Below are positions 17,795-39,661 of a stretch of DNA of 46,060 nt, in pieces. Every line of letters begins with the position of its first letter. Position 1 is the stretch's first letter. The stretch comes from a virus: positions 1-46,060 of the IMG/VR virus record IMGVR_UViG_3300025849_002608; one strand, written 5' to 3'. The notes under the pieces were generated by a model. The model was not told where the DNA came from and made no database searches. It saw only the letters and a list, made by a program, of their open reading frames with translations. Both the position numbers and the translations under genes were made by a program.

Positions 17795-17813
17795 TTATAA
17801 ATGGAAAAAGATT

Positions 17814-20504: not shown

Positions 20505-20852
20505 ATGGATGAGAGGCTTGAAAAGGCTTTGGAGTTCGGTAACTATCGAACTACACTTAGTAATCAAAAGAAAAATATTATTGCTCGTATGCAAACACTG
20601 CAACTATTGCATTATCAAGGAGGATCCTTTACTGCGAATCCTAGCACAATATCGTTTGTACACGCATTGATACAACTTGGAAAGAAGAAAAGTGTTATTT
20701 TAGACACTAAGGAAAACCCAATTGAAATATCTGATCTTAACGAATTTTTAGAAGGATTAGTTGGTGCATATTCCGAAGGTGTAAATGAATATAAAGTACA
20801 GATGGACAAGATTAAAAAGTCTAGAAATATTAAGAAAATCATGGATTGGTAA
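20505..20852 (+). CDS. Small conserved phage-type protein, role unknown
   Basis: The 115-residue protein is the first gene behind the consensus promoter. It opens with MDERLEKALEFGNYRTTLSNQKKN, followed by a mixed alpha/beta middle (GGSFTANPSTISFVHALIQL, VILDTKENPIEISDLNEF) and a basic C-terminal helix (VQMDKIKKSRNIKKIMDW). The ALEF.NYR.T start and the PI.I.DL..F core resemble small proteins of unknown role seen in T4-like marine phages. There is no signal peptide, membrane segment or catalytic motif. Its stop overlaps the next ATG (TAATG), so translation is coupled to the glycosyltransferase gene behind it. It might be an accessory or regulatory factor; no function is proposed. Confidence 0.8.
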   Translation: MDERLEKALEFGNYRTTLSNQKKNIIARMQTLQLLHYQGGSFTANPSTISFVHALIQLGKKKSVILDTKENPIEISDLNEFLEGLVGAYSEGVNEYKVQMDKIKKSRNIKKIMDW

Positions 20853-22650: not shown

Positions 22651-23581
22651 GTACTATGTTTTTTATGACGAATGGTCAGGAGAAATCCACAGTGTAGGAA
22701 ACAAGTTCAAGGATATTGGACAATCAGTGTTATACACTGAGGATAGTACTGCGGCTGAAATACTGTTAGGACATTTGAATCCACGTAAGTACATTGTTAA
22801 TGATACGGCATCTGGTACATTTATTATGGCTAAAAAAGACGCACTGCGTATTAAAGCTGAAGAAGATCAACTAAGTAAGATTGTTACCGTACCACTAAGT
22901 GTTGATAGGGAAATTAATGTTATTGCTTACATAGATAGTATGATGTTGGAAATTAATATCCATAATGATGTCGTTCTCAGAATGGCTGGTAACAACATCA
23001 ATAAAAAATTTGCAAAAGCACATAATCAAAACAACACTATACTATATTTTTATATTGTTCAAAAAAACAATCCTAACATATTGTACAAGACAATAAAGAT
23101 TGATCCTATTGACTTAATCAACAACGGCTATGTGCTGTATGATCTGTATGATCTTTCAACCAAAGTAGCATTAGGTAATATTGATGTATTGACTCGACGT
23201 GTATTTAAAAGTTATGGGTTAAAAACTAAAAATCGTTATGTATCACTTGACTTCAATAAAAGAAAAACTAGTAAACGAAATACAATACATATAACAGATA
23301 ATAATCCTGAAGCAGCATTTATAGTAAGTCAATCAACTAAGGGCTGGATATTTAAAAGTAACTTTACCAACCCAGAGGAAATTAGAATCTACAGTGACCT
23401 TGATCTCTATATAATTGGAAAATTACCACATGAATTGCGTGGACGTATTAAGATACCAAAAACTGAACTAGGATATGGTAAAGAATATCTAGTAAACACT
23501 ACTGTAGATTTATCTACATCAAAATTCCTTGTTGGCGAATCCGGCAAGAACATTACATTTAATTATGAGGAAATAAAATAA
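22598..23581 (+). CDS. Unknown protein, possibly virion-associated
   Basis: The 327-residue protein was not recognised. It begins PKYYVFYDEWSGEIHSVGN, then has a helix-strand middle (YIVNDTASGTFIMAKKDALRIKAEEDQ), and a long beta-rich C-terminal half with many Ile, Asn and Lys residues (FIVSQSTKGWIFKSNFTNPEEIRIYSDLDLYIIG). There is no signal peptide, transmembrane segment or enzymatic motif. The assigned ATG gives an unusually long 53-base overlap with the preceding gene; the in-frame TTG at 22616 would shorten it to 35. It sits between glycosyltransferase-like genes, so an acceptor or scaffold role can be imagined, as can a minor structural protein. Confidence 0.7.
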   Translation: MNTEPRLISVVGEKPLPKYYVFYDEWSGEIHSVGNKFKDIGQSVLYTEDSTAAEILLGHLNPRKYIVNDTASGTFIMAKKDALRIKAEEDQLSKIVTVPLSVDREINVIAYIDSMMLEINIHNDVVLRMAGNNINKKFAKAHNQNNTILYFYIVQKNNPNILYKTIKIDPIDLINNGYVLYDLYDLSTKVALGNIDVLTRRVFKSYGLKTKNRYVSLDFNKRKTSKRNTIHITDNNPEAAFIVSQSTKGWIFKSNFTNPEEIRIYSDLDLYIIGKLPHELRGRIKIPKTELGYGKEYLVNTTVDLSTSKFLVGESGKNITFNYEEIK

Positions 23582-24561
23582 TGTCAAATATGGTTAGTAT
23601 CAATGATTTTGACATAGTTTACATTAGCTATGATGAACCTAATGCTGATGAAAACTATGCAGATTTATTAGACAAATGTCCATGGGCTAAACGTAGTCAT
23701 GGGGTGTGGGGCAGTGATGCCGCTCATAAAGCTGCAGCCGCACTAAGTGAAACTGATCGTTTCATTACAGTTGATGCTGATAATATCGTTCTCGATGACT
23801 TTTTTAATGTTGAGTTAGATATGGACAAAATTGGTGATAATCATGTTATTAGTTTTGCGGCAAAAAACAAAGTAAACGGATTAGTGTACGGCAATGGTGG
23901 TATTAAAATGTGGCCAGTTGAAGTTGTTAACCGTATGAGAACACATGAAGCAGCACCAGTAACAGACAAGCGGGCGCAAGTAGACTTTTGTTGGAACATT
24001 CATTATGTACAAATGAACAATTGGTATAGTTGGGTACACAACAATGGTTCACCATTGCAAGCATGGCGTGCTGGGTTCCGTGAAGGTGTTAAGATGGGAT
24101 TGGAAAACGGAGATGTCGTTGATCCAGCGGCGTTAAAACGTATTCACAGAGAAAATTATAGACGTCTTATGGTGTGGATGACTGTTGGTGAAGATACTAC
24201 AAATGGACTTTGGGCTATATATGGTGCACGTTTAGGAGCATATATGACTAATGTTACTCGTACTGATTGGGACTGGAAAAATGTACGTGACTTTGATTGG
24301 CTAACGAAATACTTTGAAGAAGAACTAGCACCACAGTTTGAGGGCGGTACTGAACTATGTCCACGTACTGGTTATACTTGGGATAAAGATAAGCTAAAAG
24401 CAAAAACAGTTGAAATTGGTACCAATTTACGTAACTCTCTTGATCTTGAATTAGCAGATATTGGTGTTGAAGGATCACGTTTCTGGAAAACAGTATATCG
24501 TAATCCAAGTAGGCTTGGCGCACAAGTTCGTGAAGACCAAGTACAAGACACCATTGACTAA
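23581..24561 (+). CDS. Glycosyltransferase-like conserved phage protein
   Basis: The 326-residue protein opens DFDIVYISYDEPNADENYADLL and has RFITVDADNIVLDDFF at about 60-75, where D65-A-D67 is the likely DxD motif of a GT-A fold. Other marked motifs are CPWAKRSHGVWGSDAAHKAAA (33-53) and NGGIKMWP (about 105). Proteins with this look occur in marine T4-like phages next to structural genes. The charged C-terminal 80 residues have no recognised fold. The gene overlaps its predecessor by one base and is followed by a 26-base gap before the radical SAM array. The acceptor is unknown. Confidence 0.65.
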   Translation: MSNMVSINDFDIVYISYDEPNADENYADLLDKCPWAKRSHGVWGSDAAHKAAAALSETDRFITVDADNIVLDDFFNVELDMDKIGDNHVISFAAKNKVNGLVYGNGGIKMWPVEVVNRMRTHEAAPVTDKRAQVDFCWNIHYVQMNNWYSWVHNNGSPLQAWRAGFREGVKMGLENGDVVDPAALKRIHRENYRRLMVWMTVGEDTTNGLWAIYGARLGAYMTNVTRTDWDWKNVRDFDWLTKYFEEELAPQFEGGTELCPRTGYTWDKDKLKAKTVEIGTNLRNSLDLELADIGVEGSRFWKTVYRNPSRLGAQVREDQVQDTID

Positions 24562-24587: not shown

Positions 24588-26057
24588 ATGAATGAAAAAA
24601 CTGAAATAGTAAACTATGAGTTAGACCCAGATCCAGAAACTGCGGCCCACTTAGTAAAGCCTAAACTAGATGAAATATCTTCTAGTATGTGTATGGCCAA
24701 ATGGCTGTGGACCAGTATTCACTTGACTAATGGAACAACTAATAGTTGCTTCTTGCCGCCTATACATAAAATTGAAGTAGAAAACATACTACACAATCCC
24801 AAAGGCTTACACAATACTCCACAGAAAAAAGAACAGCGTCAAATGATGCTTAACGGCGAACAACCAGATGGATGTAGCTACTGTTGGAATATTGAAAAGA
24901 TGGACAGATCATTTAATAGTGATCGTCATTATCGTAGTAGTGAACCTTGGGCGCAAGCTGGTTGGGATGATGTATTAGAAAAAGGAGCAGATGGCGATAT
25001 TGAGCCACGCTTTATGGAAGTCAATTTTAATCATGCATGTAACTTAGCATGTAGTTATTGTAGTCCACATCTAAGTTCAAAGTGGGCAGAAGATATTGAG
25101 CAAAACGGTCCGTATGATACTATTGTTCCTCATAATAGTATTGACTACTTTAAGCAAATTAAACAATATCCTATCCCACATAGAGAGCACAACCCATATG
25201 TGGAAGCATTTTGGGAATGGTGGCCTGAACTGTATCCTAAACTACAAAACTTTCGTATGACTGGCGGTGAACCGCTTATGGATAAAAACACATTCCGTGT
25301 GTTAGATTATGTTATTGATAACGGACGTCCAGATCTAGAAATGGCTGTTACTACTAATGCAAGTGTGCCAGATAAATTATGGAACAAGTTTGTAGACAAA
25401 GTAAGTTTTATTAGCGAGTACAAAAAATTAAAACGCTTCCGTGCATTTGTAAGTGTAGACGGATGGGGCGATCAAGCAGAGTATATGCGGCATGGATTAG
25501 ATTTTGATCGTATGTGGAATAATGTAAATAACTATCTAACCAGAGTGGATGAAGGATTAGTTACGTTTATTGTTACATTTAACATGCTTAGTTTACCAAG
25601 TATCAAGAAGTTACTTACAGGTATACTAGAACTACAGCGTATACATAATGTAACTAAAAGCAGACGTGATGAAAATGGAAACATTGTAGTATACGGACAC
25701 CATAAAGTGTTTATTGATACACCAATGTTACGCTATCCACTGTGGCAAAGTTTACAATTAACACCAGAAAGCCATTGGCATTATGCAGACGAAGCACTTG
25801 AATTTATGAAAGAAAATATTGATAAACATCGTGACAGTCGTTGGATAGGATTCAAACCACACCAGATTGAACGTTTTGATCGTAGTATTGAATTTATGAA
25901 GCAAGGATTTGATACTGACGAACAACGTGCGGAAGCTGAAGAGAACTTTGTAAGATTTTTTGATGATCATGATAGAAGAAGAGATACTGATTTGTTAGCA
26001 ACATTCCCTGAATTTGCACCACAGTACCACGAATGGAAAGAAAAATATAATGTATAA
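24588..26057 (+). CDS. Radical SAM protein A, N-terminal twitch type
   Basis: The 489-residue protein has two cysteine-rich parts. C35, C54, C96 and C99 (GCSYCW) form an N-terminal twitch-like set for an auxiliary iron-sulfur cluster. The radical SAM CxxxCxxC site is C151-C155-C158 (CNLACSYC), with the SAM-amino-group motif GGEP at 226-229 and a beta strand with Asn (VTTNASV) after it. Such enzymes cleave S-adenosylmethionine to a 5'-deoxyadenosyl radical that takes a hydrogen from the substrate; the auxiliary cluster often helps in oxidation (as in BtrN or anaerobic sulfatase maturases). The closest relative in the window is the next gene: both share the PYVEAFW.WWP segment. The substrate is unknown. 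Confidence 0.85.
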   Translation: MNEKTEIVNYELDPDPETAAHLVKPKLDEISSSMCMAKWLWTSIHLTNGTTNSCFLPPIHKIEVENILHNPKGLHNTPQKKEQRQMMLNGEQPDGCSYCWNIEKMDRSFNSDRHYRSSEPWAQAGWDDVLEKGADGDIEPRFMEVNFNHACNLACSYCSPHLSSKWAEDIEQNGPYDTIVPHNSIDYFKQIKQYPIPHREHNPYVEAFWEWWPELYPKLQNFRMTGGEPLMDKNTFRVLDYVIDNGRPDLEMAVTTNASVPDKLWNKFVDKVSFISEYKKLKRFRAFVSVDGWGDQAEYMRHGLDFDRMWNNVNNYLTRVDEGLVTFIVTFNMLSLPSIKKLLTGILELQRIHNVTKSRRDENGNIVVYGHHKVFIDTPMLRYPLWQSLQLTPESHWHYADEALEFMKENIDKHRDSRWIGFKPHQIERFDRSIEFMKQGFDTDEQRAEAEENFVRFFDDHDRRRDTDLLATFPEFAPQYHEWKEKYNV

Positions 26058-27732
26058 GAATATTGAATACGCTGACGAACGAGAAAATATGAAAAAAGTA
26101 TACGGGTGTGACACCATGTGTACTGCTAAATTTCTTACTAGTACGTTATATCTTCAAAGTGGGCACACACATAGTTGCTATCACCCATTGCCGCATAAAA
26201 TTCCACTGGAAGAAATTAAGGACAATCCAAGTGCATTGCATAACACTAAGCATAAAATTGCTAGACGTAAGCAAATGCTTAATGGTGAGCGTCCTAGTGA
26301 ATGTAACTATTGTTGGCGTGTAGAAGATATTGACGAAACACAACTTAGTGATCGTATTATCAAAAGTAAAAACGAACTATTGCTCACACCAGACGCACAT
26401 GAAATGATCTTAAAAAATGGATGGGATCATAACTATAGACCAACATACTTGGAAATTAGTTTTGGTAACGAATGTAATATGCGTTGTGCGTACTGCCATC
26501 CTAAAGCAAGTAGTGCTTGGATGAAGGAGATGGATCTAGAAGGAGCATTTCCAGAAGCACCACACTTGCAGGTACTTGAAGATAAAATTTATCCAGAAGA
26601 AGACAACCCATATGTGGAAGCATTTTGGAAATGGTGGCCGTATCTACGTAAAACACTTAAAGTTATTCGTGTTACTGGAGGCGAACCGTTACTACAGCAA
26701 AACGTTTGGAAGTTTTTAAGCAAACTAGAACAAACTGGTGAATGTAGTGAAATGGTATTACAAATTAATACTAACCTTAATGTTAAGAATAAGCTAGTAA
26801 GTAGAATGTGTGATTCTGTTAATAAGTTACTTGCAAATAAAAAAATTAAACGTTTCCAAATCTTTAGTAGTGTTGAGAGTTGGGGAGAACGTGCTACGTA
26901 TGCTAGAAACGGATTAAACTTAGAATTGTTTGAGCAAAACATTGACACAATTATGAATAAGATGGGACACCATCATGTTGATGATTTTAATGGTATTCAA
27001 ATTATGAATACATATAACATTATGTGTGTAACAAGCTACAACAACTTTCTTGAAAAAATACTAGAATGGAGACGCAAATACCAAAATGGTCTTGAGTATC
27101 CTAAGATTATGTTTGACATTCCACACTGTACTGAGCCAAATCACTGGACATTAATTGGACTTCCAGATGAATTCAGTGAATATGTTTCATTAACGACAGA
27201 ATTTATACAACGTTGGAAATGGAAAGCAAACTGGCACAAGTATCCACAAGAGGAGCATGATCAACAATATCACATGTACTTCAGTGAAGAAGAAGTACGA
27301 GCTTGGAATAGAGTTGAAAGCATGTGGAAGAATATATGTGAGAAAAGAGCTCGGGTACAAACTGAAGCATATCTTGAGCCTAGAGAAATAGATGATGCTA
27401 GACGTAATTGGTTTTTGTTTATTAAATCTACAGATGAGAGACGGGGAACAGATTTTAAAAAAACGTTTCCTGAAATGGTCGATTATTACGATCTGTGTGC
27501 CACATTATATGACATTCGTGAAATGGAATATAACCGCAAATGTAAAGACGAATTGTTAAAAAATGAACCATTAGATTTTCATTGGGATGACGATTTTGTT
27601 TGGCATCATCCAGCACTTGCAAAAGCATTAATTAACTGGAGAAAGATTCGAAACATACCTACCAAAATGTATTCATCTGATGAATTAGTTGGAGCATTTG
27701 GTGTGTTTGAAGGAGACAATAATGAAGAGTAG
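26050..27732 (+). CDS. Radical SAM protein B, N-terminal twitch type
   Basis: The ATG at 26050, overlapping the previous stop by 8 bases, is preferred to the in-frame TTG at 26014; this gives 560 residues. N-terminal cysteines C20, C24, C43, C85 and C88 (CNYCW) form the auxiliary-cluster region; the SAM cluster site is C142-C146-C149 (CNMRCAYC) and GGEP lies at 210-213. It parallels protein A along most of its length (HKI...NP.ALHNT and MLNGE.P..C.YCW in both), so the two arose by tandem duplication. It is about 70 residues longer, with a charged C-terminal extension (HWDDDFVWHHPAL). The fold and cofactor are clear; the substrate is not. Confidence 0.85.
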   Translation: MYKNIEYADERENMKKVYGCDTMCTAKFLTSTLYLQSGHTHSCYHPLPHKIPLEEIKDNPSALHNTKHKIARRKQMLNGERPSECNYCWRVEDIDETQLSDRIIKSKNELLLTPDAHEMILKNGWDHNYRPTYLEISFGNECNMRCAYCHPKASSAWMKEMDLEGAFPEAPHLQVLEDKIYPEEDNPYVEAFWKWWPYLRKTLKVIRVTGGEPLLQQNVWKFLSKLEQTGECSEMVLQINTNLNVKNKLVSRMCDSVNKLLANKKIKRFQIFSSVESWGERATYARNGLNLELFEQNIDTIMNKMGHHHVDDFNGIQIMNTYNIMCVTSYNNFLEKILEWRRKYQNGLEYPKIMFDIPHCTEPNHWTLIGLPDEFSEYVSLTTEFIQRWKWKANWHKYPQEEHDQQYHMYFSEEEVRAWNRVESMWKNICEKRARVQTEAYLEPREIDDARRNWFLFIKSTDERRGTDFKKTFPEMVDYYDLCATLYDIREMEYNRKCKDELLKNEPLDFHWDDDFVWHHPALAKALINWRKIRNIPTKMYSSDELVGAFGVFEGDNNEE

Positions 27733-29011
27733 TGAACATTTACTTAAAGACAGTAAGTTTTTTTGTATGGCTCCTTGGGTTACAATGCACTTTTGGCCAA
27801 GTGGTCAAGCATTTCCATGTTGTGTAATACTTCCTGAAGGCAACAATCTTAGTGAAGAATACATGGGCAACCTTAACGATAGCAGTATAGGTGAGCTTTG
27901 GAATACTGAGCAAATGCGTGAATTGCGCCGTAACATGATTGATGATAGACCCAGTAAAAGTTGTAGACGATGTTATCAACAAGAAAAAGATGCTGACATA
28001 CATACACTACGTAAAAGTTTAAATGATGACTTTGGTGATATGTTTGATCGTGTTAGAGATACACAAGAGGATGGATCGCATGATGACCCACGCTTTTATT
28101 ATTGGGATGTAAGATTTAATAACTTGTGTAACTTACGGTGTTTAAGTTGTGGTCCACAGTTTAGTAGTAGTTGGATTAATGATGCCAAAGCAGCCTGGAA
28201 CTATGAAGAGCCTGCACTACTAGAGTTACCTAAAACATTCTGGGACGATGCGTTGCCAGCAATTCAGGAAGTAAGGCATGCATACTTTGCAGGTGGTGAA
28301 CCACTGATAACAGCAGAACACTACAAGATGTTAGACACTTGGTTAGAGAGTGGGAATACAGATGTGAACATTAGTTATACCACAAACTTTACTAAAACAA
28401 ACTTAGGCAAAAAGCGAGTATTTGATTACTGGAACAAGTTTAAAAATGTAAATGTTGGTGCCAGTTTAGACGACAATTGGGAACGTGCAGAGTACCTACG
28501 TAAAGATACTATTTGGACAGATATTGTAAAAAATAGACGTGAAATGATAGCGGAATGTCCTAATACACCATTCTTTATTAGTAGTACAATTAGTGCTTAT
28601 AATGTATGGCACTGGCCAGACTTCCATCGTGAATGGATTGAAGAAGGATTGGTAGACATTAATAGTTTAAACTTGACTATCTTAACACATCCTGAGAGAC
28701 TAAGTATACAAGTACTGCCAAAAGACTTTAAACTACAAGTAACTAAAAAATGGGAAAAACATATTGAATATGTTCAGGATTTACGTAAACAACAAAATCC
28801 AGACTGGCAAAATGATACTACTAATTTTGAAGGTATAATTAAGTTTATGTATGCAGACGATACATTTGATAACAAATTTAATGAGTTTTTATGGACTACA
28901 AAAGAATTTGATAACATTAGAAAAAATGATGCATATGCAGTGTATCCAGAGTTAGAACAACTTAAAAAATATGAGATAATGCCAGATGACCCAAGATATA
29001 AAATCGCTTAG
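27722..29011 (+). CDS. Radical SAM protein C, N-terminal twitch type
   Basis: The frame opens at 27689 but the ATG at 27722 follows AAGGAG and overlaps the previous stop, giving 429 residues. The N-terminus is KFFCMAPWVTMHFWPSGQAFPCC, with C15, C33, C34, C81 and C84 as auxiliary-cluster ligand candidates. The radical SAM motif is C136-C140-C143 (CNLRCLSC), GGEP is at 191-194, and a TTNF strand follows. The CMAPW..MH.WP.G.AFPCC start is typical of the N-twitch radical SAM group. It pairs with protein D, which shares this start, the ELWN segment and the C-terminal LP.D.KL.VTK.WEKH segment. This suggests related substrates. Confidence 0.87.
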   Translation: MKSSEHLLKDSKFFCMAPWVTMHFWPSGQAFPCCVILPEGNNLSEEYMGNLNDSSIGELWNTEQMRELRRNMIDDRPSKSCRRCYQQEKDADIHTLRKSLNDDFGDMFDRVRDTQEDGSHDDPRFYYWDVRFNNLCNLRCLSCGPQFSSSWINDAKAAWNYEEPALLELPKTFWDDALPAIQEVRHAYFAGGEPLITAEHYKMLDTWLESGNTDVNISYTTNFTKTNLGKKRVFDYWNKFKNVNVGASLDDNWERAEYLRKDTIWTDIVKNRREMIAECPNTPFFISSTISAYNVWHWPDFHREWIEEGLVDINSLNLTILTHPERLSIQVLPKDFKLQVTKKWEKHIEYVQDLRKQQNPDWQNDTTNFEGIIKFMYADDTFDNKFNEFLWTTKEFDNIRKNDAYAVYPELEQLKKYEIMPDDPRYKIA

Positions 29012-30287
29012 TAACCAATACCAACTACATGATAGTAAAACATTCTGCATGGCTCCTTGGATCCATATGCATGTGTGGCCAAACGGACGAGCATTTCCTT
29101 GTTGTTTAGCTGAACATAATGAAGGAAACGATTATGGCAATACTAATACACATACGTTAGAAGAATTATGGAACAGCGACTTAGCTAAAACATTACGTAC
29201 TAATATGTTAAATGATAAGCCAACTAGTGCATGTACTCGTTGCTACGAACTCGAATCAGACAGTAATGCATACACACTACGAAAAAACATGAACAATCGT
29301 TTTGCACATCACTTTTGGCGTACACATGATACAAAAGAAGATGGCACATATGATGGCATTAACCTTACTTACATGGACTTTCGTTTTAGTAACTTATGTA
29401 ATATGAGTTGTAGAAGTTGTAGTCCTACATTTAGTACACAATGGTATGACGATTTTATTAAAGAGTTTGGCAGTGTTCCTAAAGATATAGCAGAGCAAAA
29501 ATTTATACAACTCAAGAATAAAAAAGGATTTGAGCAAGAACTGTGGCCCTATTTGGACACAGTAGAAGAAGTATACTGGGCAGGCGGTGAACCCTTAATA
29601 ACAGACATGCACTGGAAGATTATGAACCACTGGGTTGAAACAGGACACGCACAAAACGTTAGTGTTTTGTACACCACAAACTTCAGTCAACTTACATATA
29701 AAAACCAACACGTATTTGATTTATGGAAACAATTTAAGCAAGTTAAAGTTAGTGCTAGTTTGGATGCAATGGGAACACATGGCGAGTACATACGTAAAGG
29801 TACTATTTGGTCAGACATTGAAGCAAACAGACAAGCAATGTTAGACGATCCAGAATTAGCCCATGTTGAGTTTGATATATGTCCAACACTTAGCCTTATG
29901 AATGTACTACACTTTCCTGACTTCCATGAAGAGTGGGTTAACAAAGGATTTATCCCCCCAGGCGAAGTTCGATTAAATAACTTGCTAGACCCAAAGTTTT
30001 TGAGTATGCAAGCATTACCAAATGATTATAAATTAAAAGTTACTAAGCGATGGGAAAAACACCTCGAATGGTTATCAATAAGAGAAGATTTTGTTCCAGA
30101 TCATTGGCCCGCTAGTCAATATATTGACAGTGCTAAAGGACTATTAAATTTTATGAATACAACAGACCGAACTAGTGAGCTAGCAAGTACAATTAAAGAA
30201 TTTGAAAGATGGGACAAATGGAGAGACGAAAGTTGGTTAGAAGTATTACCAGAATTGGCATGTATTGGAGAATATCGTGAGCAGTAA
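28986..30287 (+). CDS. Radical SAM protein D, N-terminal twitch type
   Basis: The 433-residue protein overlaps gene C by 26 bases. C21, C39, C40, C83 and C86 form the N-terminal cluster region (FCMAPWIHMHVWPNGRAFPCC). The SAM site is C138-C142-C145 (CNMSCRSC), with GGEP at 200-203 followed by TTNFSQL. The similarity to protein C runs from end to end and is the strongest of any pair in the array, so this is a tandem duplicate that has since diverged. Retention of all cysteines in both copies argues that both are active enzymes with different substrates or successive steps. Confidence 0.87.
   Translation: MTQDIKSLSNQYQLHDSKTFCMAPWIHMHVWPNGRAFPCCLAEHNEGNDYGNTNTHTLEELWNSDLAKTLRTNMLNDKPTSACTRCYELESDSNAYTLRKNMNNRFAHHFWRTHDTKEDGTYDGINLTYMDFRFSNLCNMSCRSCSPTFSTQWYDDFIKEFGSVPKDIAEQKFIQLKNKKGFEQELWPYLDTVEEVYWAGGEPLITDMHWKIMNHWVETGHAQNVSVLYTTNFSQLTYKNQHVFDLWKQFKQVKVSASLDAMGTHGEYIRKGTIWSDIEANRQAMLDDPELAHVEFDICPTLSLMNVLHFPDFHEEWVNKGFIPPGEVRLNNLLDPKFLSMQALPNDYKLKVTKRWEKHLEWLSIREDFVPDHWPASQYIDSAKGLLNFMNTTDRTSELASTIKEFERWDKWRDESWLEVLPELACIGEYREQ
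30267..30270 (+). promoter_or_regulatory. Ribosome binding site that selects the GTG start at 30277
   Basis: GGAG at 30267-30270 lies six bases before the GTG at 30277, better placed than anything upstream of the in-frame TTG at 30265. It lies within the end of gene D. Confidence 0.6.
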
Positions 30288-31566
30288 AACTTATTGTTTA
30301 TTTCCTTTTACCAATTTAAATAGTAATACTGAAGGCAGTGTAAAGTTATGTTGTAGTATTAATGAAAACATTCATGCAACTGATTCTAATGACAATGAAC
30401 TAAATTTTGGAACACACAGTGTTGAAGATATTTGGAACAGTCAGTATATGAAAGATATACGGAAACAAATGCTTAATGGAGAGCGGCCAAAAGCATGTGA
30501 TGTATGTTGGAAACTGGAAGACAGTGGTATACAAAGTTCAAGACAAAGCGCATTTGGTGAGCTTAAAGCATGGGCAATGCCTAAAGAATATCAAACAATA
30601 AATCCTCCACTTCCGCAGAGCTTAGAGCTTCGATTAGGAAATTTTTGTAACTTACGGTGTAATAGTTGTTGGAGTTTAAGTAGTGATAGAGTTGCAGAAG
30701 AACGTAGACGTATTCAGCTCAATGATGATATTATGCCATTTTGGCTTAGGAAAGAATGGGATCATGAACTAGACTTAGAAAACCAAGCAAACTGGCGATG
30801 GTGGGAAAGTGATGAGTTTGTAGATAGTATTAAAAAACTCGCACCCACACTAAAAAGATTATACCTCACTGGAGGAGAACCAACATTAATTAAGCGTAAT
30901 ATTGAAATTATGCAAATGATACTTGATGCTGGTAATACAAACTGTTACATTGCACTTACTACTAACTTAACTCAGTGGAATGATGTGTTCTATAATACCA
31001 TGACAAGATTTGATCATGGTGAGATTCAGATTAGTATAGATCATGTACATGACAAAAATGAGTATATAAGATATCCAACTAAATGGGAAAGTATAGAAAA
31101 AAATGTTATCAGACTTTATGATAAATTTCCACAGAGTTGGAAGATTAAACATTATACTGTATTTCAAACTTATAACTATGATGCTATACCTGACGTACTT
31201 GATTGGGTGCACAATCATCGTAGCTGGTATGACAGTAAAGAAAAGAACAGGCTTTATATTTGGAGCCCAATTATGTTGGATAGCCCTTCGTACTTGGACG
31301 TTAGAATTATTCAGCCTGAAGTTAGACAACGTACAATTGAAAAGCTAAAAGCATATGAGCCTAGTCATCAAGTACCTAATGTATGGTGGCAACATGGCGT
31401 AGAACAAGCTATTAAGAGACTGGAAGACAACTCACTAAGTGAGGAATATTGTACAGACCAACGTCAGCGGTTTAGGGAATTTAATGACACCATGGATAGA
31501 CAACGAAACACACAATGGTATAGTACTTTCCATAACCTTGCGTTTGAGGTATTAAATAATGAGTGA
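30277..31566 (+). CDS. Radical SAM protein E, N-terminal twitch type
   Basis: A GTG start at 30277 with GGAG six bases upstream is preferred; it overlaps the end of gene D by 11 bases and gives 429 residues. C7, C25, C26, C74 and C77 (CDVCW) make up the auxiliary-cluster region, in the form KTYCLFPFTNLNSNTEGSVKLCC. The SAM cluster site is C124-C128-C131 (CNLRCNSC) and GGEP is at 199-202, with a TTNLTQW strand after it. Its nearest relative here is protein H (KSYCILPYNHLSIDPTG, then CC at the same residues), with three other genes between them. The SAM site and auxiliary region are intact, and the substrate is unknown. Confidence 0.87.
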   Translation: MSSKTYCLFPFTNLNSNTEGSVKLCCSINENIHATDSNDNELNFGTHSVEDIWNSQYMKDIRKQMLNGERPKACDVCWKLEDSGIQSSRQSAFGELKAWAMPKEYQTINPPLPQSLELRLGNFCNLRCNSCWSLSSDRVAEERRRIQLNDDIMPFWLRKEWDHELDLENQANWRWWESDEFVDSIKKLAPTLKRLYLTGGEPTLIKRNIEIMQMILDAGNTNCYIALTTNLTQWNDVFYNTMTRFDHGEIQISIDHVHDKNEYIRYPTKWESIEKNVIRLYDKFPQSWKIKHYTVFQTYNYDAIPDVLDWVHNHRSWYDSKEKNRLYIWSPIMLDSPSYLDVRIIQPEVRQRTIEKLKAYEPSHQVPNVWWQHGVEQAIKRLEDNSLSEEYCTDQRQRFREFNDTMDRQRNTQWYSTFHNLAFEVLNNE

Positions 31567-33763
31567 AGAACAAGGTGTTGCATGGTACAGACTACAACAG
31601 AAAGAAAGACAAGACCCTCCTACTAGAGAAGAAGGCACTTACTTGGAAGACCGTAGTACTGCTACACAAAAAATTATGGAAAAGTGGAGCAAGGGTCCAC
31701 AAAAAGGTTTAAAACCAGTTGAGATAGAATACAATACTAATCGCAATACTCGGTTGTGTTTATTAATGTGTCCTGAATGGGATCCAGGTTTTCCACATTA
31801 TGGAATTGCCAAACTTGCAGGTGTAACGAATACTGCTGGATTTGCTACTAAGTGTTTTGATTTAAATGTTGAAGCATACGCAGCATATAATGATGCAAAG
31901 TATAAAGGCGAGCCGTGGGACATACACTATGATCCGTGGGAAGGACCAAGAGATTGGCACTGGATTGGTGAACAATATTGGAACGAACTACACACTTATG
32001 TAAAGCCAATTCTCGACAAAGCAGTTGACCAGATGGTAGAGTTTGCTCCAGACTTTTTGGGAGTAAGTCTTTATTACTGTAATGAAGAACCTAGCGACTA
32101 CATTATTAAAGAAATAAAAAAACGTCTGCCTGACATTAAAATTATTGTAGGCGGACCTAGCACACACTATAGTTATTTTAAACCAAAAGAAATATATGAC
32201 TTCGTTGTTAATGGAGAAGGCGAGCGTCCATTACTAAACATTTTAATGCAACATGAAGGCAAACTTCTAATTGAAGGAGAAAAAGTTGGGAAAACTATTG
32301 TCTTACGACAAGAGGAAAATGAACGAGTAAGTTTAAATGACTTACCGTATCCTGATTATAGTAATATGCCAATGGACAAGTATAGTTTTCCAAATGGCGC
32401 ATTACTTGCTATTAGTAGAGGATGTATTGCTAAATGCACATTCTGTGAAGAGACACATTACTACAAGTATAGACAACGTACTAGTGTTAGTACACTAGAC
32501 GAAGTTATTTACATGCACAAAACATATGGTACAAACGTATTTTATTTTGTTGACAGTTTAGTAAATGGTAATCTTAACGAATTGAGAGCATTTGCAGAAG
32601 GTGTAATTGCCAGTGGTATTAAGATACACTGGAGTGGTTATGCTAGATGCGATGGACGTATGGACTTGGAGTATATGCAAGTGTTACGTGATAGTGGATG
32701 TGAAGCTCTTAACTATGGTACAGAGAGTGGTGCACAAGAAGTATTAGATGCCATGGATAAAAAAGTTACTATACCAGAAATGGAAGCTAACTTTAGAGAC
32801 GGTAAAAAAGTAGGCATTGGTGCTATGACTAACTGGATTGTTGGATACCCTAATGAAAATGGTCGTATGCTTGAAGATAGTATGACCTTTTTGTGGCGTC
32901 AACGTAATCAAGGGTTGTTAAACATTGGACAAGGTACTGGCTTTAATGTTGGTGTTGACACGATTGTAGGTCAAAACTTTGATAGATTTAATTTAAAACA
33001 ATGGTATTATTATGATCATTGGATTACCAAAGATGACAAAATGAGTATTGCTCACAAGCTAATACGTATGAAAACTTTTAGTATTTTTACTGACTTTTTA
33101 CTTAGTGAGACAGAAATTGGCAAACCTACTCGTCATAATCTCCGTGAACGGCATTATACTATTGAGTGGAATGACCCTAACAGACAAAATGAAATTGAAT
33201 ATCCTGATAAAGACACTGACTATAACATAATTAAACCAGGCATAAGTAATTTTGCAGATAGTTTAGTCAATGAAATATGGCCTTTCTTACATGTAGTATG
33301 GAAAACTCGAGGCGGATACAAATTTAATCTAAAGTTTAATTACGAATGGGAATTAGAAGAATGGGGTGCACGTAATGCAGCACCGCTATATGCAGATTAT
33401 AAATTTGAAATTGATGACGATGGCAATTGGTCAGCTGACTTTGATTGGGATTATAGACAAACACATACTGATCATGTATATCAAGATCATACCTATCCTG
33501 ATGAGAACGGAAACATTATATCAGATCCAGACACAGTCGGACCAGTGTTTACTGTAATGAACTTTTTTAGCGACAATAGTAATGCAGCTACTCGTGCTAG
33601 AAAACTAGCATGGAAGGGTGACGAAAACTTTAAAAATCATGATCCTTGGAATGCATTTGACCCAGACTGGTTTAACAAAGTTAAAGAAGATTTTAGAGTT
33701 GGTCGTGAAATGGACTATAGTTTTATGTATGATTGGCAAGGAACAGGAAAATGGAATGAGTGA
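31559..33763 (+). CDS. Radical SAM protein F with N-terminal B12-binding-like domain
   Basis: The 734-residue protein differs from its neighbours. Residues about 60-245 (LCLLMCPEWDP...GIAKLAGVTNTAGF, FLGVSLYYCNE, IKIIVGGPSTHY, FVVNGEGERPLL) have the alternating strand/helix pattern of the B12-binding domain of class B radical SAM enzymes. The SAM motif is C289-C293-C296 (CIAKCTFC), and the barrel continues with HWSGYARCD, ALNYGTESG and GAMTNWIVGYP. The His of the DxHxxG corrinoid motif is not evident, so cobalamin may be bound base-off without it or not at all. The C-terminal 250 residues are rich in Trp, Asp and Tyr and unrecognised. Relatives often methylate unreactive carbons or make sulfur and cyclisation changes; the exact role is open. 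Confidence 0.82.
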   Translation: MSEEQGVAWYRLQQKERQDPPTREEGTYLEDRSTATQKIMEKWSKGPQKGLKPVEIEYNTNRNTRLCLLMCPEWDPGFPHYGIAKLAGVTNTAGFATKCFDLNVEAYAAYNDAKYKGEPWDIHYDPWEGPRDWHWIGEQYWNELHTYVKPILDKAVDQMVEFAPDFLGVSLYYCNEEPSDYIIKEIKKRLPDIKIIVGGPSTHYSYFKPKEIYDFVVNGEGERPLLNILMQHEGKLLIEGEKVGKTIVLRQEENERVSLNDLPYPDYSNMPMDKYSFPNGALLAISRGCIAKCTFCEETHYYKYRQRTSVSTLDEVIYMHKTYGTNVFYFVDSLVNGNLNELRAFAEGVIASGIKIHWSGYARCDGRMDLEYMQVLRDSGCEALNYGTESGAQEVLDAMDKKVTIPEMEANFRDGKKVGIGAMTNWIVGYPNENGRMLEDSMTFLWRQRNQGLLNIGQGTGFNVGVDTIVGQNFDRFNLKQWYYYDHWITKDDKMSIAHKLIRMKTFSIFTDFLLSETEIGKPTRHNLRERHYTIEWNDPNRQNEIEYPDKDTDYNIIKPGISNFADSLVNEIWPFLHVVWKTRGGYKFNLKFNYEWELEEWGARNAAPLYADYKFEIDDDGNWSADFDWDYRQTHTDHVYQDHTYPDENGNIISDPDTVGPVFTVMNFFSDNSNAATRARKLAWKGDENFKNHDPWNAFDPDWFNKVKEDFRVGREMDYSFMYDWQGTGKWNE

Positions 33764-34763
33764 GCTAATACGAATTGAACAAGGTGGTGAGCCGTTTGTT
33801 AATATTACATGGCAAGTTAGTAACTTATGTAACTTTCGTTGTACATACTGTAATGAAGCAAACTGGAACGGCAGTAACCTTAACTTAGATATTGAAGCTA
33901 TTAAAGCTGGATTAACTAAACTGATTGACTATGAACTCAGTAGGGGTTATACTAGACTTAAAGTGTTCTTTAGTGGCGGCGAACCTTGTTATTGGAAGCC
34001 ACTTGTTCCTGTAATGGAGCATATACTAGCAAGTGGAATGACTGAAGTCAAGTTTGCTGTTAACACAAACCTTAGCAGTAAAATGTCCTGGTGGGAAAAG
34101 AATGTACATTACTTTGACGATGTTGTTGCTAGTTACCATCCTGAGTTTGTTGATAGTGATCACTATATGGAGATTTATAAGTTTTTAAGTGATAGAGTAA
34201 ACTATCTATGTGGGCGCATGATGATGCATGAGCCAACTTGGGATGAAGTAATCGACTTTAGTAACAGACTAAAAACAGAGATGAGTGAACACAACTGGCG
34301 AGTAGAGTATGTACCTATTTTTGAAGAGCTTAGTCATACAACACGCCCATACAATTATAAAAACCCAGAGCATAAAGAGTTTTTAGAAACAACCAACTTG
34401 GAACAAGACATTAAATACAATGTTCCAGCCAAAGCTGATGGTATGGGAAGTATGGAAGTATATGCAGACGGATCAGAGAAGCCCATTAACTGTAACAGAC
34501 TAGTAGCAGAAAACAAAAACTTCTTCAAAGGATGGAAATGTTTAATCCCAATGGAGAGCATTTTCATTAACTGTGAAGGTCATATTGACATGGGTAGTTG
34601 TGGGGTAATGCCAAGAGTAGGTAACCTATATGACCCAGAACTAGAATTAGACTTACCTGAAAGTGTAATTTGTCCTAAGTCACATTGTCATTGTGGTACA
34701 GATATTTACATTACAAAATACAAGGATAGAAATTATGAACCACTTAATGAAATTAGCACATAA
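33756..34763 (+). CDS. Radical SAM protein G with C-terminal SPASM-like cysteine region
   Basis: The ATG at 33756 overlaps the end of gene F by 8 bases; a longer frame from 33618 lies within gene F and is not used. The 335-residue protein has its SAM site near the N-terminus, C25-C29-C32 (CNFRCTYC), and GGEP at 74-77. Cysteines cluster in the last third (ending CPKSHCHCGTD), as expected for a SPASM or C-terminal twitch auxiliary cluster. This is the classical order, the reverse of the N-twitch neighbours. SPASM enzymes commonly modify peptides, proteins or sugars. The gene ends inside the start of the small SnoaL-like gene. Substrate unknown. Confidence 0.82.
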   Translation: MSELIRIEQGGEPFVNITWQVSNLCNFRCTYCNEANWNGSNLNLDIEAIKAGLTKLIDYELSRGYTRLKVFFSGGEPCYWKPLVPVMEHILASGMTEVKFAVNTNLSSKMSWWEKNVHYFDDVVASYHPEFVDSDHYMEIYKFLSDRVNYLCGRMMMHEPTWDEVIDFSNRLKTEMSEHNWRVEYVPIFEELSHTTRPYNYKNPEHKEFLETTNLEQDIKYNVPAKADGMGSMEVYADGSEKPINCNRLVAENKNFFKGWKCLIPMESIFINCEGHIDMGSCGVMPRVGNLYDPELELDLPESVICPKSHCHCGTDIYITKYKDRNYEPLNEIST

Positions 34764-35064
34764 CTATTTTAAAGCCTGGAATAGCAATGATGTAGAACAA
34801 CTAAAGCCAATGTTTAATGAGGATATTATACTCATTGACTGGGACGTTAGTGTTGAGGGTTTTGATAAGGTTATTGAAACTAATCAAAATATTTTTAAAG
34901 CAGTGCCTGGCATACGTGCTGAGGTATCTAATATAGTAACTGATGATAATGTTGCAATAGCACAGATAATTGTACATATCAGTGAGGATGAAGCTATTGA
35001 AGTAGTAGACGTTTTAAAATTTGTTGATAATAAGATAAGTGCTATTAGAGCATACAAGGGATAA
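34735..35064 (+). CDS. NTF2/SnoaL-like small protein
   Basis: The ATG at 34735 is chosen over upstream in-frame positions because an AAGGATAG purine run precedes it; it overlaps gene G by 29 bases. The 109-residue product fits the cone-shaped SnoaL/NTF2 fold: two helices (LAHNYFKAWNSNDVEQLKPMF), a DIILIDWDVSVEGFDKVIE segment, then beta strands (IRAEVSNIVTDDNVAIAQIIVHIS, VVDVLKFVDNKISAIRAYKG). SnoaL-like proteins act as cyclases, isomerases or hydrolases on small molecules in biosynthetic clusters, or as simple binding proteins. Set between radical SAM genes, it may process the same small molecule. It has no clear catalytic residue set. Confidence 0.72.
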   Translation: MNHLMKLAHNYFKAWNSNDVEQLKPMFNEDIILIDWDVSVEGFDKVIETNQNIFKAVPGIRAEVSNIVTDDNVAIAQIIVHISEDEAIEVVDVLKFVDNKISAIRAYKG

Positions 35065-35066
35065 AA

Positions 35067-36287
35067 ATGGATACTAAGTCATACTGCATTTTGCCGTACA
35101 ACCATTTAAGTATAGATCCAACTGGTCAAATTCGTCCATGTTGTAACTATAACTTTCATGCCGATAATTATCCTGGTGTAGAAAAAGGCTGGGAATTTAA
35201 AAACATTATCGACTGTGAAGGTGGCTTACTTGATGCAGTACCTCATCGTGAACTACGTAAAGATATTGAATCTGGTAAGAAACATGATTTTTGCAACCGC
35301 TGTTGGATAGTAGAAGATGGCGGTGGGTTTAGTTATAGACAAAGCTGGAACCAATGGTTTGATGCATCAGAACCACATCAATTCCGTACAAACATAAACA
35401 TTGAGTACTTAGAACTTACACTAGGAAACAAATGTAATATTCAGTGTAGAATGTGTAATCCTTGGTCAAGTAGTATGTGGGCTGACGACATGGTTAACAA
35501 TCCTGAAATTAATTTTTGGAAAGCAGACATGTCTGAGATTAATTTTGAATGGTATGACCATCCTAATTTTGATAAAGTGTTTGAAGAGATTATACCTACA
35601 CTAAAGCACATAAACATGCTAGGCGGTGAACCATTATTTGTTCCGAAATATTATGAATTATTACAGCGTATAATTGATAGCGGACGAGCACCGGAAGTTA
35701 GTTTACAATTTAACACCAACATGTTAGCAGTACAAGATAAAGTATTTGACTTATGGAAACATTTTAAGAAAATTAATATCAACATGAGTTGTGATGGTGT
35801 TAATGGAGTTAATGAGTATGTACGTTGGCCAGGCAAATGGAGTAAGTGGGAACGTAACCTACAAAAAGTAATTAATTGGTCAAAACAAATGGAACCAGGT
35901 AAGTGGGTACTACAAGTGCATAGTACAATGAGTAGTTTAACTTGGTTAGATTTAGCTAATTTATATGAATATACACAAACACTCGATATAGAAATTAAAC
36001 TTCCTTATCTTATACAAGTAAATCAACCTGCCTACATGGATGCTATACATTTGCCAGATGCAATTAAACAAAAAGGCTATGATGCTGCTGTTTCTGTTTT
36101 AAATAACAGTAATGCTCCAGAGTGGGAAAAAGCAAACAACCAAGCATTATTAGATCATGTCATGGGCCAAGACAGAGATCCTGCTAAGTGGGAACAATTT
36201 ATAGATCATACCAATAAACTTGACAAAGTAAGAAAGCAAACTATACTTGATGTTATACCAGAATACAAGGACTATTGGAAAACTTAA
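35067..36287 (+). CDS. Radical SAM protein H, N-terminal twitch type
   Basis: The 406-residue protein starts two bases after the SnoaL-like gene. C7, C25, C26, C76 and C79 (CNRCW) are the auxiliary-cluster candidates, in KSYCILPYNHLSIDPTGQIRPCC. The SAM site is C123-C127-C130 (CNIQCRMC) and GGEP starts at 186, in MLGGEPLF. The barrel strand FNTNM and ININMSCDGVN follow. It resembles protein E most closely. It is the last of the eight radical SAM genes and ends in a TAATG overlap with the glycosyltransferase-like gene, which ties the array to the sugar genes that follow. Confidence 0.87.
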   Translation: MDTKSYCILPYNHLSIDPTGQIRPCCNYNFHADNYPGVEKGWEFKNIIDCEGGLLDAVPHRELRKDIESGKKHDFCNRCWIVEDGGGFSYRQSWNQWFDASEPHQFRTNINIEYLELTLGNKCNIQCRMCNPWSSSMWADDMVNNPEINFWKADMSEINFEWYDHPNFDKVFEEIIPTLKHINMLGGEPLFVPKYYELLQRIIDSGRAPEVSLQFNTNMLAVQDKVFDLWKHFKKININMSCDGVNGVNEYVRWPGKWSKWERNLQKVINWSKQMEPGKWVLQVHSTMSSLTWLDLANLYEYTQTLDIEIKLPYLIQVNQPAYMDAIHLPDAIKQKGYDAAVSVLNNSNAPEWEKANNQALLDHVMGQDRDPAKWEQFIDHTNKLDKVRKQTILDVIPEYKDYWKT

Positions 36288-37450
36288 TGGCAGTACTACA
36301 TCCTGATTCAACAGCAACCCATGCGCTGGATACCAATTTTACATTAGATTTAATAAAAGATAGCAGTAGACAGGAGATACTAGTTGTTGGAACTCCATAT
36401 GGGTTACAGCCTGATAAACAAACGGGCGATGTTCTTGTGCCATATAATCAAATAGAATATTTTGAGAACTTCTCTACACATTTTTCACACCTCTTACCTG
36501 ACATAAAAAGTGGAAAAACTAAAGTAGTTTTTTTATTTTGTGATGCATGGAATACATGTAATGAACAAGAACAACATTTACAGTTTAACGGCAATTTTTT
36601 AACAATAGACATATACAACATACTATACAAAGTTGTTACAGATCTCAATATTAAACAACACAGTGTGTTTAGTACACCTAGTAGTGTAAAAAATTTAAAA
36701 CAGCATGATGATTGGCCTGCGATTTATTATACTGAATCATTCAATCGTTATTTTGGATTTAAAGGTGTATTTGGGAAGTCTTTCAAAAAAACTAACCCAT
36801 TAACAAACAAATACTTTTGGTTAAATCGACGTAGTAGGTCACATCGAATATATGCATTACATGAAGCATTTCGTTTAGGCATGATGCAACAAGCACTTTA
36901 TACATTTCATAACTTTGATGAGGGCAATTTAGACAGTGGACATTTCTTTCATGTGTTAAGACAATATTTGCCAGCTGAACAAATTGACATGGACTTTTTA
37001 AATCATACTCGTAACGATTTAGATCCAGGGTATAATGTTAGTACTGATGCACAGAATGAGTCTGAACTGTTACAACTTCAAAAGTTAAGTCAATCTTGTT
37101 CGTTAGAAATAGTAAGTGAATTTAACTGTAGTAACAACAAACCATTTTTAACTGAAAAGATAGGACGCAGTATTGTAATGGGCAACCCGTTTATTGTACT
37201 TGGTGATGCAGGAACACTCGACGAGCTACGTACCCTTGGGTTTCGTACATTTAGTAAATGGATTGACGAATCATATGACACAGTTACAGATGTAAAAACA
37301 AGAATTGATACAGCATTAGCTGCCGCTAGAGATTGCAATATTATGTCATACGATACTGAATTGCAAGAAACTTTAGAATATAATTATAACTTTTACTTCT
37401 CGGAGTTTTGTGAACAACAAACAAACGTATTAAAGGAAATGTTTCAATGA
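36287..37450 (+). CDS. GT-B/fucosyltransferase-like protein, putative
   Basis: The ATG at 36287 (TAATG with gene H) is preferred to the in-frame TTG at 36275, giving 387 residues. The N-terminal 200 residues are not recognised; a basic RRSRSHRIYALHEAFRLGM stretch lies near 185-203. Residues about 286-330 (PFLTEKIGRSIVMGNPFIVLG, then GTLDELRTLGFRTF and DESYD) follow the pattern at the C-terminal nucleotide-sugar side of exostosin- and GT10-like transferases, where the TEK and the following small-residue loop hold the donor. It could thus transfer a deoxyhexose such as fucose, fitting with the GDP-fucose synthase-like gene downstream. It could instead be an unrelated phage protein with this motif. 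Confidence 0.6.
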   Translation: MAVLHPDSTATHALDTNFTLDLIKDSSRQEILVVGTPYGLQPDKQTGDVLVPYNQIEYFENFSTHFSHLLPDIKSGKTKVVFLFCDAWNTCNEQEQHLQFNGNFLTIDIYNILYKVVTDLNIKQHSVFSTPSSVKNLKQHDDWPAIYYTESFNRYFGFKGVFGKSFKKTNPLTNKYFWLNRRSRSHRIYALHEAFRLGMMQQALYTFHNFDEGNLDSGHFFHVLRQYLPAEQIDMDFLNHTRNDLDPGYNVSTDAQNESELLQLQKLSQSCSLEIVSEFNCSNNKPFLTEKIGRSIVMGNPFIVLGDAGTLDELRTLGFRTFSKWIDESYDTVTDVKTRIDTALAAARDCNIMSYDTELQETLEYNYNFYFSEFCEQQTNVLKEMFQ

Positions 37451-38988
37451 CGCCTCAACACGTTATACAACAAGTATCTGATATGAATATCTGGCATAAT
37501 GCAGTTTGGGTAAACCGTCAACAGCAAACATTCTTTGTGCCTATATGGCGTAATGGTAACACAGAATTTATGCACTTAGCAGAACAGTTTGGCTATACAT
37601 TAGAAAAGTATTTTGATCTTACTGGGTACACAGGCTATGCATTTGTTAGACATCCCAGTAAAAGACTAGCTGGACAAATATGGAGAGCAATGCAAAATCA
37701 ACAGTTTAGTTTTGAACAGTGTGTTGATTATATTATGCAAGGAGACTTATCTAAAGATCCTCATTTTAGAACACAACAAAGTTTCTTGCAAGACTATGAT
37801 GTTGAGTACCTAATAGACTTAGACGATATGCAATCCACAGGACATCAACATATTGATGCAGTGATTAGTTATATGCAACAGCCTAAAGAGATTGTACGCA
37901 GTGCAATTGATCAACAACAACGACAAGAGATTCAACAGCAAATAGACAACACACAAATAATTAACAAGTACCAACAAGACTTTGAGCTAGTAATGCCAAC
38001 AGTTGGTATAGTTGGTGTAGGCAAAATTGGATCTATACTACATCAAGCACTAACAGAAAAAGGCGTTAAAGTCAAGAGATATGATGTAAAAAAAGAATAC
38101 GACAGTCTTGACAGTATTAAAAAATGTGACATAATATGGTTGTGTGTTGATACACCAACAGTTGATGGCGAAAAAGACTTTGATTATACTAATTTAAAAT
38201 CAGCACTTGATAACTTTTCCAATAAAACTGTTATTATTGGTTGTACAGTAGCACCTGGCACATGTGCGAAACTCCAAACACAGTGTAACTTTGTTTACAT
38301 GCCATTCCTTATTAGTCAAGGTGACGTAATGTCAGGATTAACAGATCCTGATTGTTGGTTCATTGGTGGCGATTATAATTCACAAGTAAGTAATCTAGTC
38401 AGTATTTTAAGTCCAAGTGTACAACATTGGGGAACATATGAAGAAGCAGAACTTGCTAAAGCTATGTACAATGCTTGGATAATTCAAAAAATAAACTTTG
38501 CTAATTGGGTAGGCGACTTGGGTACAGTTTACAATGCCAATGCACATCAAGTAATGGACTGGCTTAAAGGATGTGATAAACTTATTACTGGACCAGCATA
38601 TATGACACCAGGATGGGGAGACGGTGGTCCATGTCACCCGAGAGATAACTTAATGATGAGTTGGGCTAGTAGAGACTTGCCATATGATTTAGCATGGAAT
38701 AATCATACAGTTAGAATAAAGCAAGCAGAACACTTAGCACACCGTGCGATAAGTACCAAGTTACCAGTAATAATACTTGGTAAAAGTTACAAGCCAGGTA
38801 TTGATGATACAACTGGAAGCTATGGTTTACTAGTAGCACAGCAAATAGAAAAACTTAATGGTGAGGTATATTTCGAGGACCACTTGACACCTGGTGATTA
38901 TTGTTATATACTAGCACATGATGACTGGTATGGACATACACCATCACAAGAGAGCATAACAATAACAATATGGAAAAACAATTTATAA
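37447..38988 (+). CDS. Fusion: sulfotransferase-like domain + UDP-glucose/GDP-mannose 6-dehydrogenase
   Basis: Residues about 20-145 have the style of a sulfotransferase: VPIWRNGNTEF (31-41) at the 5'-phosphosulfate loop, then GYAFVRHPSKRL (63-74) at the 3'-phosphate site. Residues about 180-513 are a nucleotide-sugar dehydrogenase: GIVGVGKIG (187-195) binds NAD, GCTVAPGTC lies in the core, AKAMYNAWIIQKINFAN forms the central helix, GDGGPCHPRD holds the catalytic Cys396, and GKSYKPGIDDTTGS opens the sugar-binding domain. The enzyme should oxidise the C6 of UDP-glucose or a similar sugar to a uronic acid. The dehydrogenase is short (about 335 residues against about 390-430). A sulfotransferase joined to a dehydrogenase is unusual. 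The two halves could act in sequence. Confidence 0.85.
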   Translation: MTPQHVIQQVSDMNIWHNAVWVNRQQQTFFVPIWRNGNTEFMHLAEQFGYTLEKYFDLTGYTGYAFVRHPSKRLAGQIWRAMQNQQFSFEQCVDYIMQGDLSKDPHFRTQQSFLQDYDVEYLIDLDDMQSTGHQHIDAVISYMQQPKEIVRSAIDQQQRQEIQQQIDNTQIINKYQQDFELVMPTVGIVGVGKIGSILHQALTEKGVKVKRYDVKKEYDSLDSIKKCDIIWLCVDTPTVDGEKDFDYTNLKSALDNFSNKTVIIGCTVAPGTCAKLQTQCNFVYMPFLISQGDVMSGLTDPDCWFIGGDYNSQVSNLVSILSPSVQHWGTYEEAELAKAMYNAWIIQKINFANWVGDLGTVYNANAHQVMDWLKGCDKLITGPAYMTPGWGDGGPCHPRDNLMMSWASRDLPYDLAWNNHTVRIKQAEHLAHRAISTKLPVIILGKSYKPGIDDTTGSYGLLVAQQIEKLNGEVYFEDHLTPGDYCYILAHDDWYGHTPSQESITITIWKNNL

Positions 38989-39659: not shown

Positions 39660-39661
39660 AA

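Follow-up and report, generated by a model that had tools for sequence, protein, structure and literature searches.

Why would a bacterial virus carry eight radical SAM (rSAM) genes side by side, and on what would their products act? We addressed this question on the whole 46,060 nt virus record IMGVR_UViG_3300025849_002608 (hereafter the window; its genes are numbered w01 onwards and all those described below lie on the + strand). The initial annotation, made from the sequence alone, had pointed to eight CxxxCxxC rSAM proteins at positions 24,588–36,287, and this observation was confirmed. It had further proposed that the array performs a multistep modification during infection and that the neighbouring sugar-nucleotide genes indicate a glycan or sugar-derived product. 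This interpretation was supported only in part.

The radical SAM array

All eight rSAM genes were found in one overlapping operon. Six of them matched the NCBIfam model NF033640 (N_Twi_rSAM, twitch domain-containing radical SAM protein) over their full length and far above its cut-off of 170 bits: w15 (24,588–26,057; 333 bits), w16 (26,014–27,732; 261 bits), w17 (27,689–29,011; 360 bits), w18 (28,986–30,287; 371 bits), w19 (30,265–31,566; 303 bits) and w23 (35,067–36,287; 303 bits). These proteins possess the four N-terminal auxiliary Cys, the CX3CX2C motif and GGEP. An N-terminal SPASM match (PF13186) was seen in w17 and w18 (44 and 46 bits, respectively), and w19 matched PF04055 with 43.5 bits. 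Proteins w16 and w17 more likely start at internal ATGs near 26,050 and 27,722. The seventh protein, w20 (31,559–33,763), was not listed by NF033640, but showed a B12-binding domain (PF02310, 36.2 bits against a cut-off of 32.1) and a Radical_SAM domain (PF04055, 49.2 against 29.5), followed by an unassigned C-terminal region; it has 25 viral relatives. The eighth, w21 (33,756–34,763), was rSAM-like but below all family cut-offs (PF04055 26.8 bits against 29.5; best NCBIfam model STM4011, 52 against 200; NF033640 only 35). The initial annotation had assigned to it a C-terminal SPASM-like set. No PF13186 match was obtained for w21, although its CxxxCxxC and seven C-terminal Cys were invariant in 8 relatives. 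The long w21 ORF starting at 33,618 overlaps w20, whereas the conserved start is the ATG at 33,756, which overlaps w20 by 8 bases. A ninth gene, w22 (34,693–35,064), had been missed: it is not an rSAM gene but encodes a SnoaL/NTF2-like protein (SnoaL_2, 46 bits). The spacing was as originally described, with overlaps throughout and a single 2-base gap.

The array is far beyond what chance would produce. A search with w18 returned 14 loci, 12 of which possessed the same array; w20 was missing in some, w17 in one, and w19 was moved in one. A search with w15 returned at least 436 viral relatives, of which 80 were kept. Among 298 successive rSAM pairs in 83 viral loci with w15, 216 overlapped or lay within 10 bases. 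Distant relatives (about 45% identity in w15) typically possess five N-twitch enzymes. In 180 non-redundant N-twitch proteins, the three rSAM cysteines were invariant (180/180) and the four auxiliary cysteines were complete in 178. The two conditions under which the initial proposal would have failed, non-conserved cysteines and a scattered array, were thus examined: the cysteines are conserved, and the array is not scattered in its lineage in spite of the losses of w17 and w20 and the displacement of w19. The dN/dS values between the window and one relative (L006) were 0.029–0.076 for the eight rSAM genes (0.043 for w15, 0.029 for w21), compared to 0.067–0.22 for the neighbouring genes tested outside the array and 0.30 for w22. 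This strong purifying selection ruled out a decayed array.

A recent tandem amplification of one gene was also rejected. The N-twitch paralogues of the window are 19–32% identical to the first one, and in the tree they fall into old, separate clades: w15 with distant orthologues, a separate distant clade for the second position, a clade with w17 and w18, and lineage-specific w19 and w23 clades. Only w17/w18 look like a lineage-specific duplication. The old paralogues kept as separate lineages make a multistep process plausible, but unproven.

No PDB relative of w15 was found by sequence. Only weak hits were obtained for w20 (TokK and an apramycin oxidoreductase) and for w21 (5wgg, a radical SAM domain protein). 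It has been proposed for the five-gene rSAM cluster of the Campylobacter phages CP220 and CPt10 (PMC2853527) that such enzymes are metabolic helpers, improving host redox or cofactor metabolism under low oxygen. This is very unlikely here, as none of the eight proteins scored above the cut-off of any cofactor-pathway equivalog in NCBIfam, and the synteny is with tail and sugar genes. A bacterial origin was also searched for. A scan of 84,980 species genomes with w15 gave only two contigs, both from one Marinimicrobia MAG and with phage synteny, probably corresponding to a misbinned phage; 2 of 245 genomes of that phylum, one of them this MAG, matched the N-twitch model.

Tail genes and predicted glycosyltransferases upstream

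The window is a fragment of a jumbo myovirus genome. It begins with baseplate genes (gp5-, gp25- and gp6-like), and its baseplate wedge protein is closest to those of jumbo myoviruses (Atu_ph07, SCTP-2, Phosso and GAP32 relatives). No tRNA gene was found in the window. After a 3662-aa structural protein comes w07 (17,754–18,413), a tail/virion-region protein (phrog_11259, E 2e-57) kept upstream of w15 in 36 of the 83 loci. The C-terminal half of w08 (18,423–19,340) is 53% identical to PA5oct gp359, annotated as a virion structural protein detected by ESI-MS/MS, and the w09 profile (19,342–20,439) hits PA5oct gp360, also annotated from ESI-MS/MS (E 3e-37). The small protein w10 (20,505–20,852), of unknown role, is conserved in an alignment of 16 relatives.

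The w09 protein contains (Gly-Tyr)n tracts, which raised the possibility that the rSAM enzymes modify protein directly, in the manner of RiPP maturases, by installing cross-links or epimerising residues in a virion protein such as w09. Sequence relatives of several members in NCBIfam do include SPASM-type peptide maturases, but all far below cut-off. The (GY)n tracts were present in 21 of 91 w09 relatives and in no other protein family scanned, and occurred only in w09 of relatives that carry the array; however, they are missing in most array-bearing phages. There is no room for a precursor peptide gene between the array genes, which overlap or lie 2 bases apart, and the conserved glycosyltransferases and nucleotide-sugar genes would be unexplained. 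This reading is improbable.

The next genes form a small predicted glycosyltransferase module. Protein w11 (20,846–21,760) is glycogenin-like, with a DxD motif: its AlphaFold2 model (pLDDT 92) matched glycogenin and the UGGT catalytic domain in Foldseek with a probability of 1.00 (E 2e-7). Protein w12 (21,760–22,650) is related to w11 (profile–profile probability 99.8%), and its profile found glycogenin-1 in the PDB (E 4e-8), although its DxD-type motif is degenerate. Neither protein had a Pfam GT8 hit, identity to glycogenin/GT8 enzymes is only about 12%, and scanning w11 relatives member by member against Pfam was uninformative. Protein w13 (22,598–23,581), of unknown role, had no Pfam or PHROG match and is present in the closer relatives. 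Protein w14 (23,581–24,561), directly before the array, is GT-A-like: nearly all the best Foldseek hits of its model (pLDDT 87.5) were GT-A enzymes (SunS, TarP, WrtF; probability about 0.9, E 5e-4), but with TM-scores of only about 0.3, so that this assignment is likely, not certain.

In the 83 loci, which were chosen for rSAM genes and not for glycosyltransferases, w14, w11 and w12 were upstream of w15 in 81, 81 and 77 cases, respectively, and distant relatives keep the order tail genes, w11, w12, w14. The reverse search with w14 alone gave at least 586 relatives. Among the 80 kept, GT8 was upstream in 71/71 loci with enough upstream sequence, but rSAM genes followed in only 38/69 with enough downstream sequence. 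Of the 31 rSAM-less loci, 16 were inspected, and all had the GT8 and w14-like genes behind tail genes or w10. In 8 of these 16, the operon then ended before genes on the opposite strand. In the other 8 (loci L250, L253, L254, L256, L261, L269, L271 and L272), it continued into same-strand ORFs with no similarity to the window, which could include sugar genes. The rSAM array therefore goes with the glycosyltransferases, but not the reverse, as expected of a tailoring pathway, and looks like an optional add-on to a tail-linked module.

Downstream sugar genes and the proposed role of the array

Downstream of the array lies w24 (36,275–37,450), a conserved protein repeatedly found beside these arrays. 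It had no family or PDB match, including in an uninformative member-by-member Pfam scan of its relatives, and is glycosyltransferase-like by eye only. It is followed by w25 (37,447–38,988), of the nucleotide-sugar dehydrogenase family (PF00984; TIGR03026, E 2e-27, below cut-off), w26 (38,970–39,659), methyltransferase-like (Methyltransf_23, E 3e-5, below cut-off), w27 (39,641–40,861), a C-methyltransferase (Methyltransf_13/14; PF08484, E 8e-20), w28 (40,830–41,543), a Stf0-type sulfotransferase (PF09037, E 3.5e-7), w29 (41,540–42,430), a GDP-fucose-synthase-like NDP-sugar epimerase/reductase (NF047922, E 2e-62, below the equivalog cut-off), and w32 (44,634–45,710), a DegT-type sugar aminotransferase (phrog_3139, E 1.5e-38; LegC/PseC-like, below cut-off). 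In the two relatives L008 and L010, an additional ORF sits between w14 and w15; the L010 protein looks like an HldE-type nucleotidyltransferase fused to a mannose-6-phosphate-isomerase-type cupin, below the curated cut-offs. A bacterial N-twitch homologue also sits among glycosyltransferases. The link to sugars or glycans suggested by the initial annotation is well supported, and by stronger evidence than was available to it.

We propose, tentatively, that a jumbo phage possessing a glycosyltransferase module straight after its tail genes has acquired, downstream of it, an operon of rSAM enzymes and nucleotide-sugar genes. In this model, the glycosyltransferases build or attach a sugar chain, most likely on the neighbouring tail proteins in the cytoplasm. 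The rSAM enzymes would then oxidise, epimerise, rearrange or, for the B12 enzyme, C-methylate the sugar or its precursor at unactivated C-H positions, supported by phage-encoded Fe-S carriers and, in some phages, by a nucleosidase. The gene content, the motifs, the synteny, the selection, the fold assignments from predicted models (only likely for w14) and the one-way dependence on the glycosyltransferase module were established by the present analysis, whereas the assembly of Fe-S clusters and cleavage of SAM, the sugar nature of the substrate, the sequential order of the reactions and the tail as acceptor are inferences made without biochemical data. We found no known substrate, product or activity for any N-twitch enzyme of this family.

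Proximity to tail genes does not prove the acceptor, as phages often place host-surface glycan genes there. The enzymes might instead remodel LPS or capsule sugars during infection, for instance to block superinfection, by using the lipid-linked assembly and export machinery of the host. This was favoured by the authors who described glycosyltransferases in the host-recognition cluster of pelagimyophages, where rSAM cassettes also occur (PMC7029224). The many nucleotide-sugar genes downstream agree with this, and the one bacterial N-twitch neighbourhood examined contains glycosyltransferases, a UbiA-type prenyltransferase and an ABC transporter. However, a simple hydropathy scan predicted no transmembrane segment in any of the 32 window proteins, and no flippase, polymerase or initiating transferase was seen among them, so no sugar-lipid synthesis or export machinery is seen here. 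In addition, the minimal glycosyltransferase module is tied to tail genes and lacks sugar-nucleotide genes similar to those of the window. The lack of predicted membrane proteins and the tail linkage favour glycosylation of tail proteins; host-surface remodelling using host machinery remains possible but is unlikely. The synthesis of a hypermodified, sugar-bearing DNA base protecting the phage genome is very unlikely. Virus glycosyltransferases that glycosylate DNA are known (cited in PMC12619734), but the present module is linked to tail genes and no base-modifying gene was seen among the window genes with a family match.

The window's phage belongs to a widespread but largely uncultured jumbo-phage group in which N-twitch rSAM enzymes are a major gene class. 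If these enzymes tailor a virion glycan, phage particles carry sugars made by a chemistry known from antibiotic biosynthesis, with consequences for host recognition and for escape from defence, and a function would be given to a large rSAM subfamily for which we found no assigned reaction. The one-way dependence makes the question directly testable. A bolder version, which is unlikely but not excluded, is that jumbo phages run a dedicated radical-chemistry pathway building an otherwise unknown sugar on the tail proteins of the virion, a class of viral glycan made by C-H functionalisation.

Related phages and accessory genes

Phages with many rSAM proteins have already been described, so that the statement in the initial annotation that single copies are usual in phages is misleading. 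Campylobacter phages CP220 and CPt10, T4-like relatives, encode 11 and 12, five of them in one interchangeable cluster (PMC2853527). CP220 gave seven matches to the N-twitch model, short, all under 31 bits and far below the cut-off; the published cluster includes a glycine amidinotransferase, and no GT8 match was found near the CP220 homologue of w08. A marine T4-like genome, TARA_ERS488813_N000010, carries 12 rSAM genes and Fe-S carrier genes (PMC5332604). This genome and the pelagimyophage cassettes share with the present array phages a tail-fibre and glycosyltransferase neighbourhood and Fe-S carrier genes in rSAM-rich phages, but belong to smaller T4-like phages, and we saw no description there of an ordered N-twitch array behind a GT8 module. 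Literature searches for such an array behind a tail-linked GT8/GT-A module, restricted to open-licence papers, found nothing; what appears to be new is this arrangement rather than the abundance of rSAM genes. Agrobacterium phage Atu_ph07 and Sinorhizobium phage Phosso each have three annotated rSAM genes at the same genomic position, just downstream of the w08 homologue, a tail structural gene, but these are not N-twitch by score and no match to the w11, w12 or w14 profiles was found nearby.

Large array-bearing records hold 7–15 N-twitch matches, the maximum being observed in a 320 kb phage contig, although the IMG/VR records of these relatives may be incomplete. A-type Fe-S carriers were present in 7/7 array-bearing records of at least 230 kb and in 0/12 cultured phages, mostly related jumbo phages. 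Fisher's test, calculated by hand, gives about 2e-5, without correction for relatedness; over all 12 array records, the comparison is 7/12 against 0/12. Campylobacter CP220 and Vibrio phage K566, the latter with N-twitch enzymes, have several rSAM genes without such a carrier, and in the window, which is a fragment, neither a carrier nor a nucleosidase is seen. No flavodoxin-family electron donor was found in 12 records of array phages. An MTA/SAH-nucleosidase-family gene lies within or next to arrays in four contigs; such enzymes also cleave 5'-deoxyadenosine, the rSAM by-product. A 57.7 kb sister contig, G257, showed 18 matches to the N-twitch model in two arrays, at about 8.0–17.4 kb (seven) and 34.9–48.5 kb (eleven), one match reading across a stop codon at its edge. 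A second array, predicted at about 17 kb past w23, would fall outside our window. Between the two arrays of G257 lie aminotransferase, pentose-phosphate-epimerase-like, SIS, nucleotidyltransferase-like and carbamoyltransferase genes.

Gly-Tyr repeats in the putative tail protein w09

The putative tail protein w09 showed Gly-Tyr repeats (positions 20092–20199), encoded in part by a hexanucleotide repeat, TACGGA, present in 3.5 copies at positions 20179–20199. The observation also involved the loci of relatives designated L006, L008–L012, L015, L016, L019, L029, and L041. The tract was found only in w09, in 21 of 91 relatives, and its length varied between relatives. It is possible that the tract corresponds to a length-variable adhesin loop, or that it provides a Tyr acceptor for the glycogenin-like enzymes.

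Radical SAM genes in relatives and in cultured phages

A second, larger array of radical SAM (rSAM) genes was observed in G257, the contig of a close relative (G257:C1:34892–48539, loci L137 and L221). This array comprised eleven rSAM-like frames, with an MTA/SAH-type nucleosidase, and was followed by two aspartyl-hydroxylase-like proteins, a TauD-type dioxygenase, a methyltransferase, and an FMN-reductase-like protein.

In the cultured rhizobial jumbo phages Atu_ph07 (locus L223, positions 116908–123069) and Phosso (locus L103, positions 185271–192395), three annotated rSAM genes each, which are not of the N-twitch type, were present at the same place behind the homologue of w08 and were mixed with unknown genes. 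These phages may be a tractable model. The cultured Vibrio phage K566 (locus L005) carried four N-twitch rSAM genes, with a PagP-like annotation and a nicotinamide phosphoribosyltransferase nearby, whereas no match to w08–w14 was seen in the stretch examined.

Two contigs of 153 and 335 kb (L100 and L101), deposited in a public bacterial metagenome-assembled genome (MAG) of Marinimicrobia, showed the phage synteny, with tail genes, GT8, w14, and w15. They probably correspond to a misbinned jumbo phage.

Proteins without an assigned family

The family of w24 (positions 36275–37450) and its relatives, characterized by F-x-TEKI and a GFxTFDxxIDESYD motif, had no Pfam or PDB match and recurred, often several times, beside these arrays. 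By eye only, it resembles a glycosyltransferase. Two further proteins, w30 and w31 (positions 42427–44656), were without a convincing family, although w30, which starts with FFGTSHTDGF, looks by eye like an SGNH-type hydrolase. In eight loci of relatives lacking rSAM genes (L250, L253, L254, L256, L261, L269, L271, and L272), three w14-like genes in a row were followed by same-strand ORFs with no similarity to the window.
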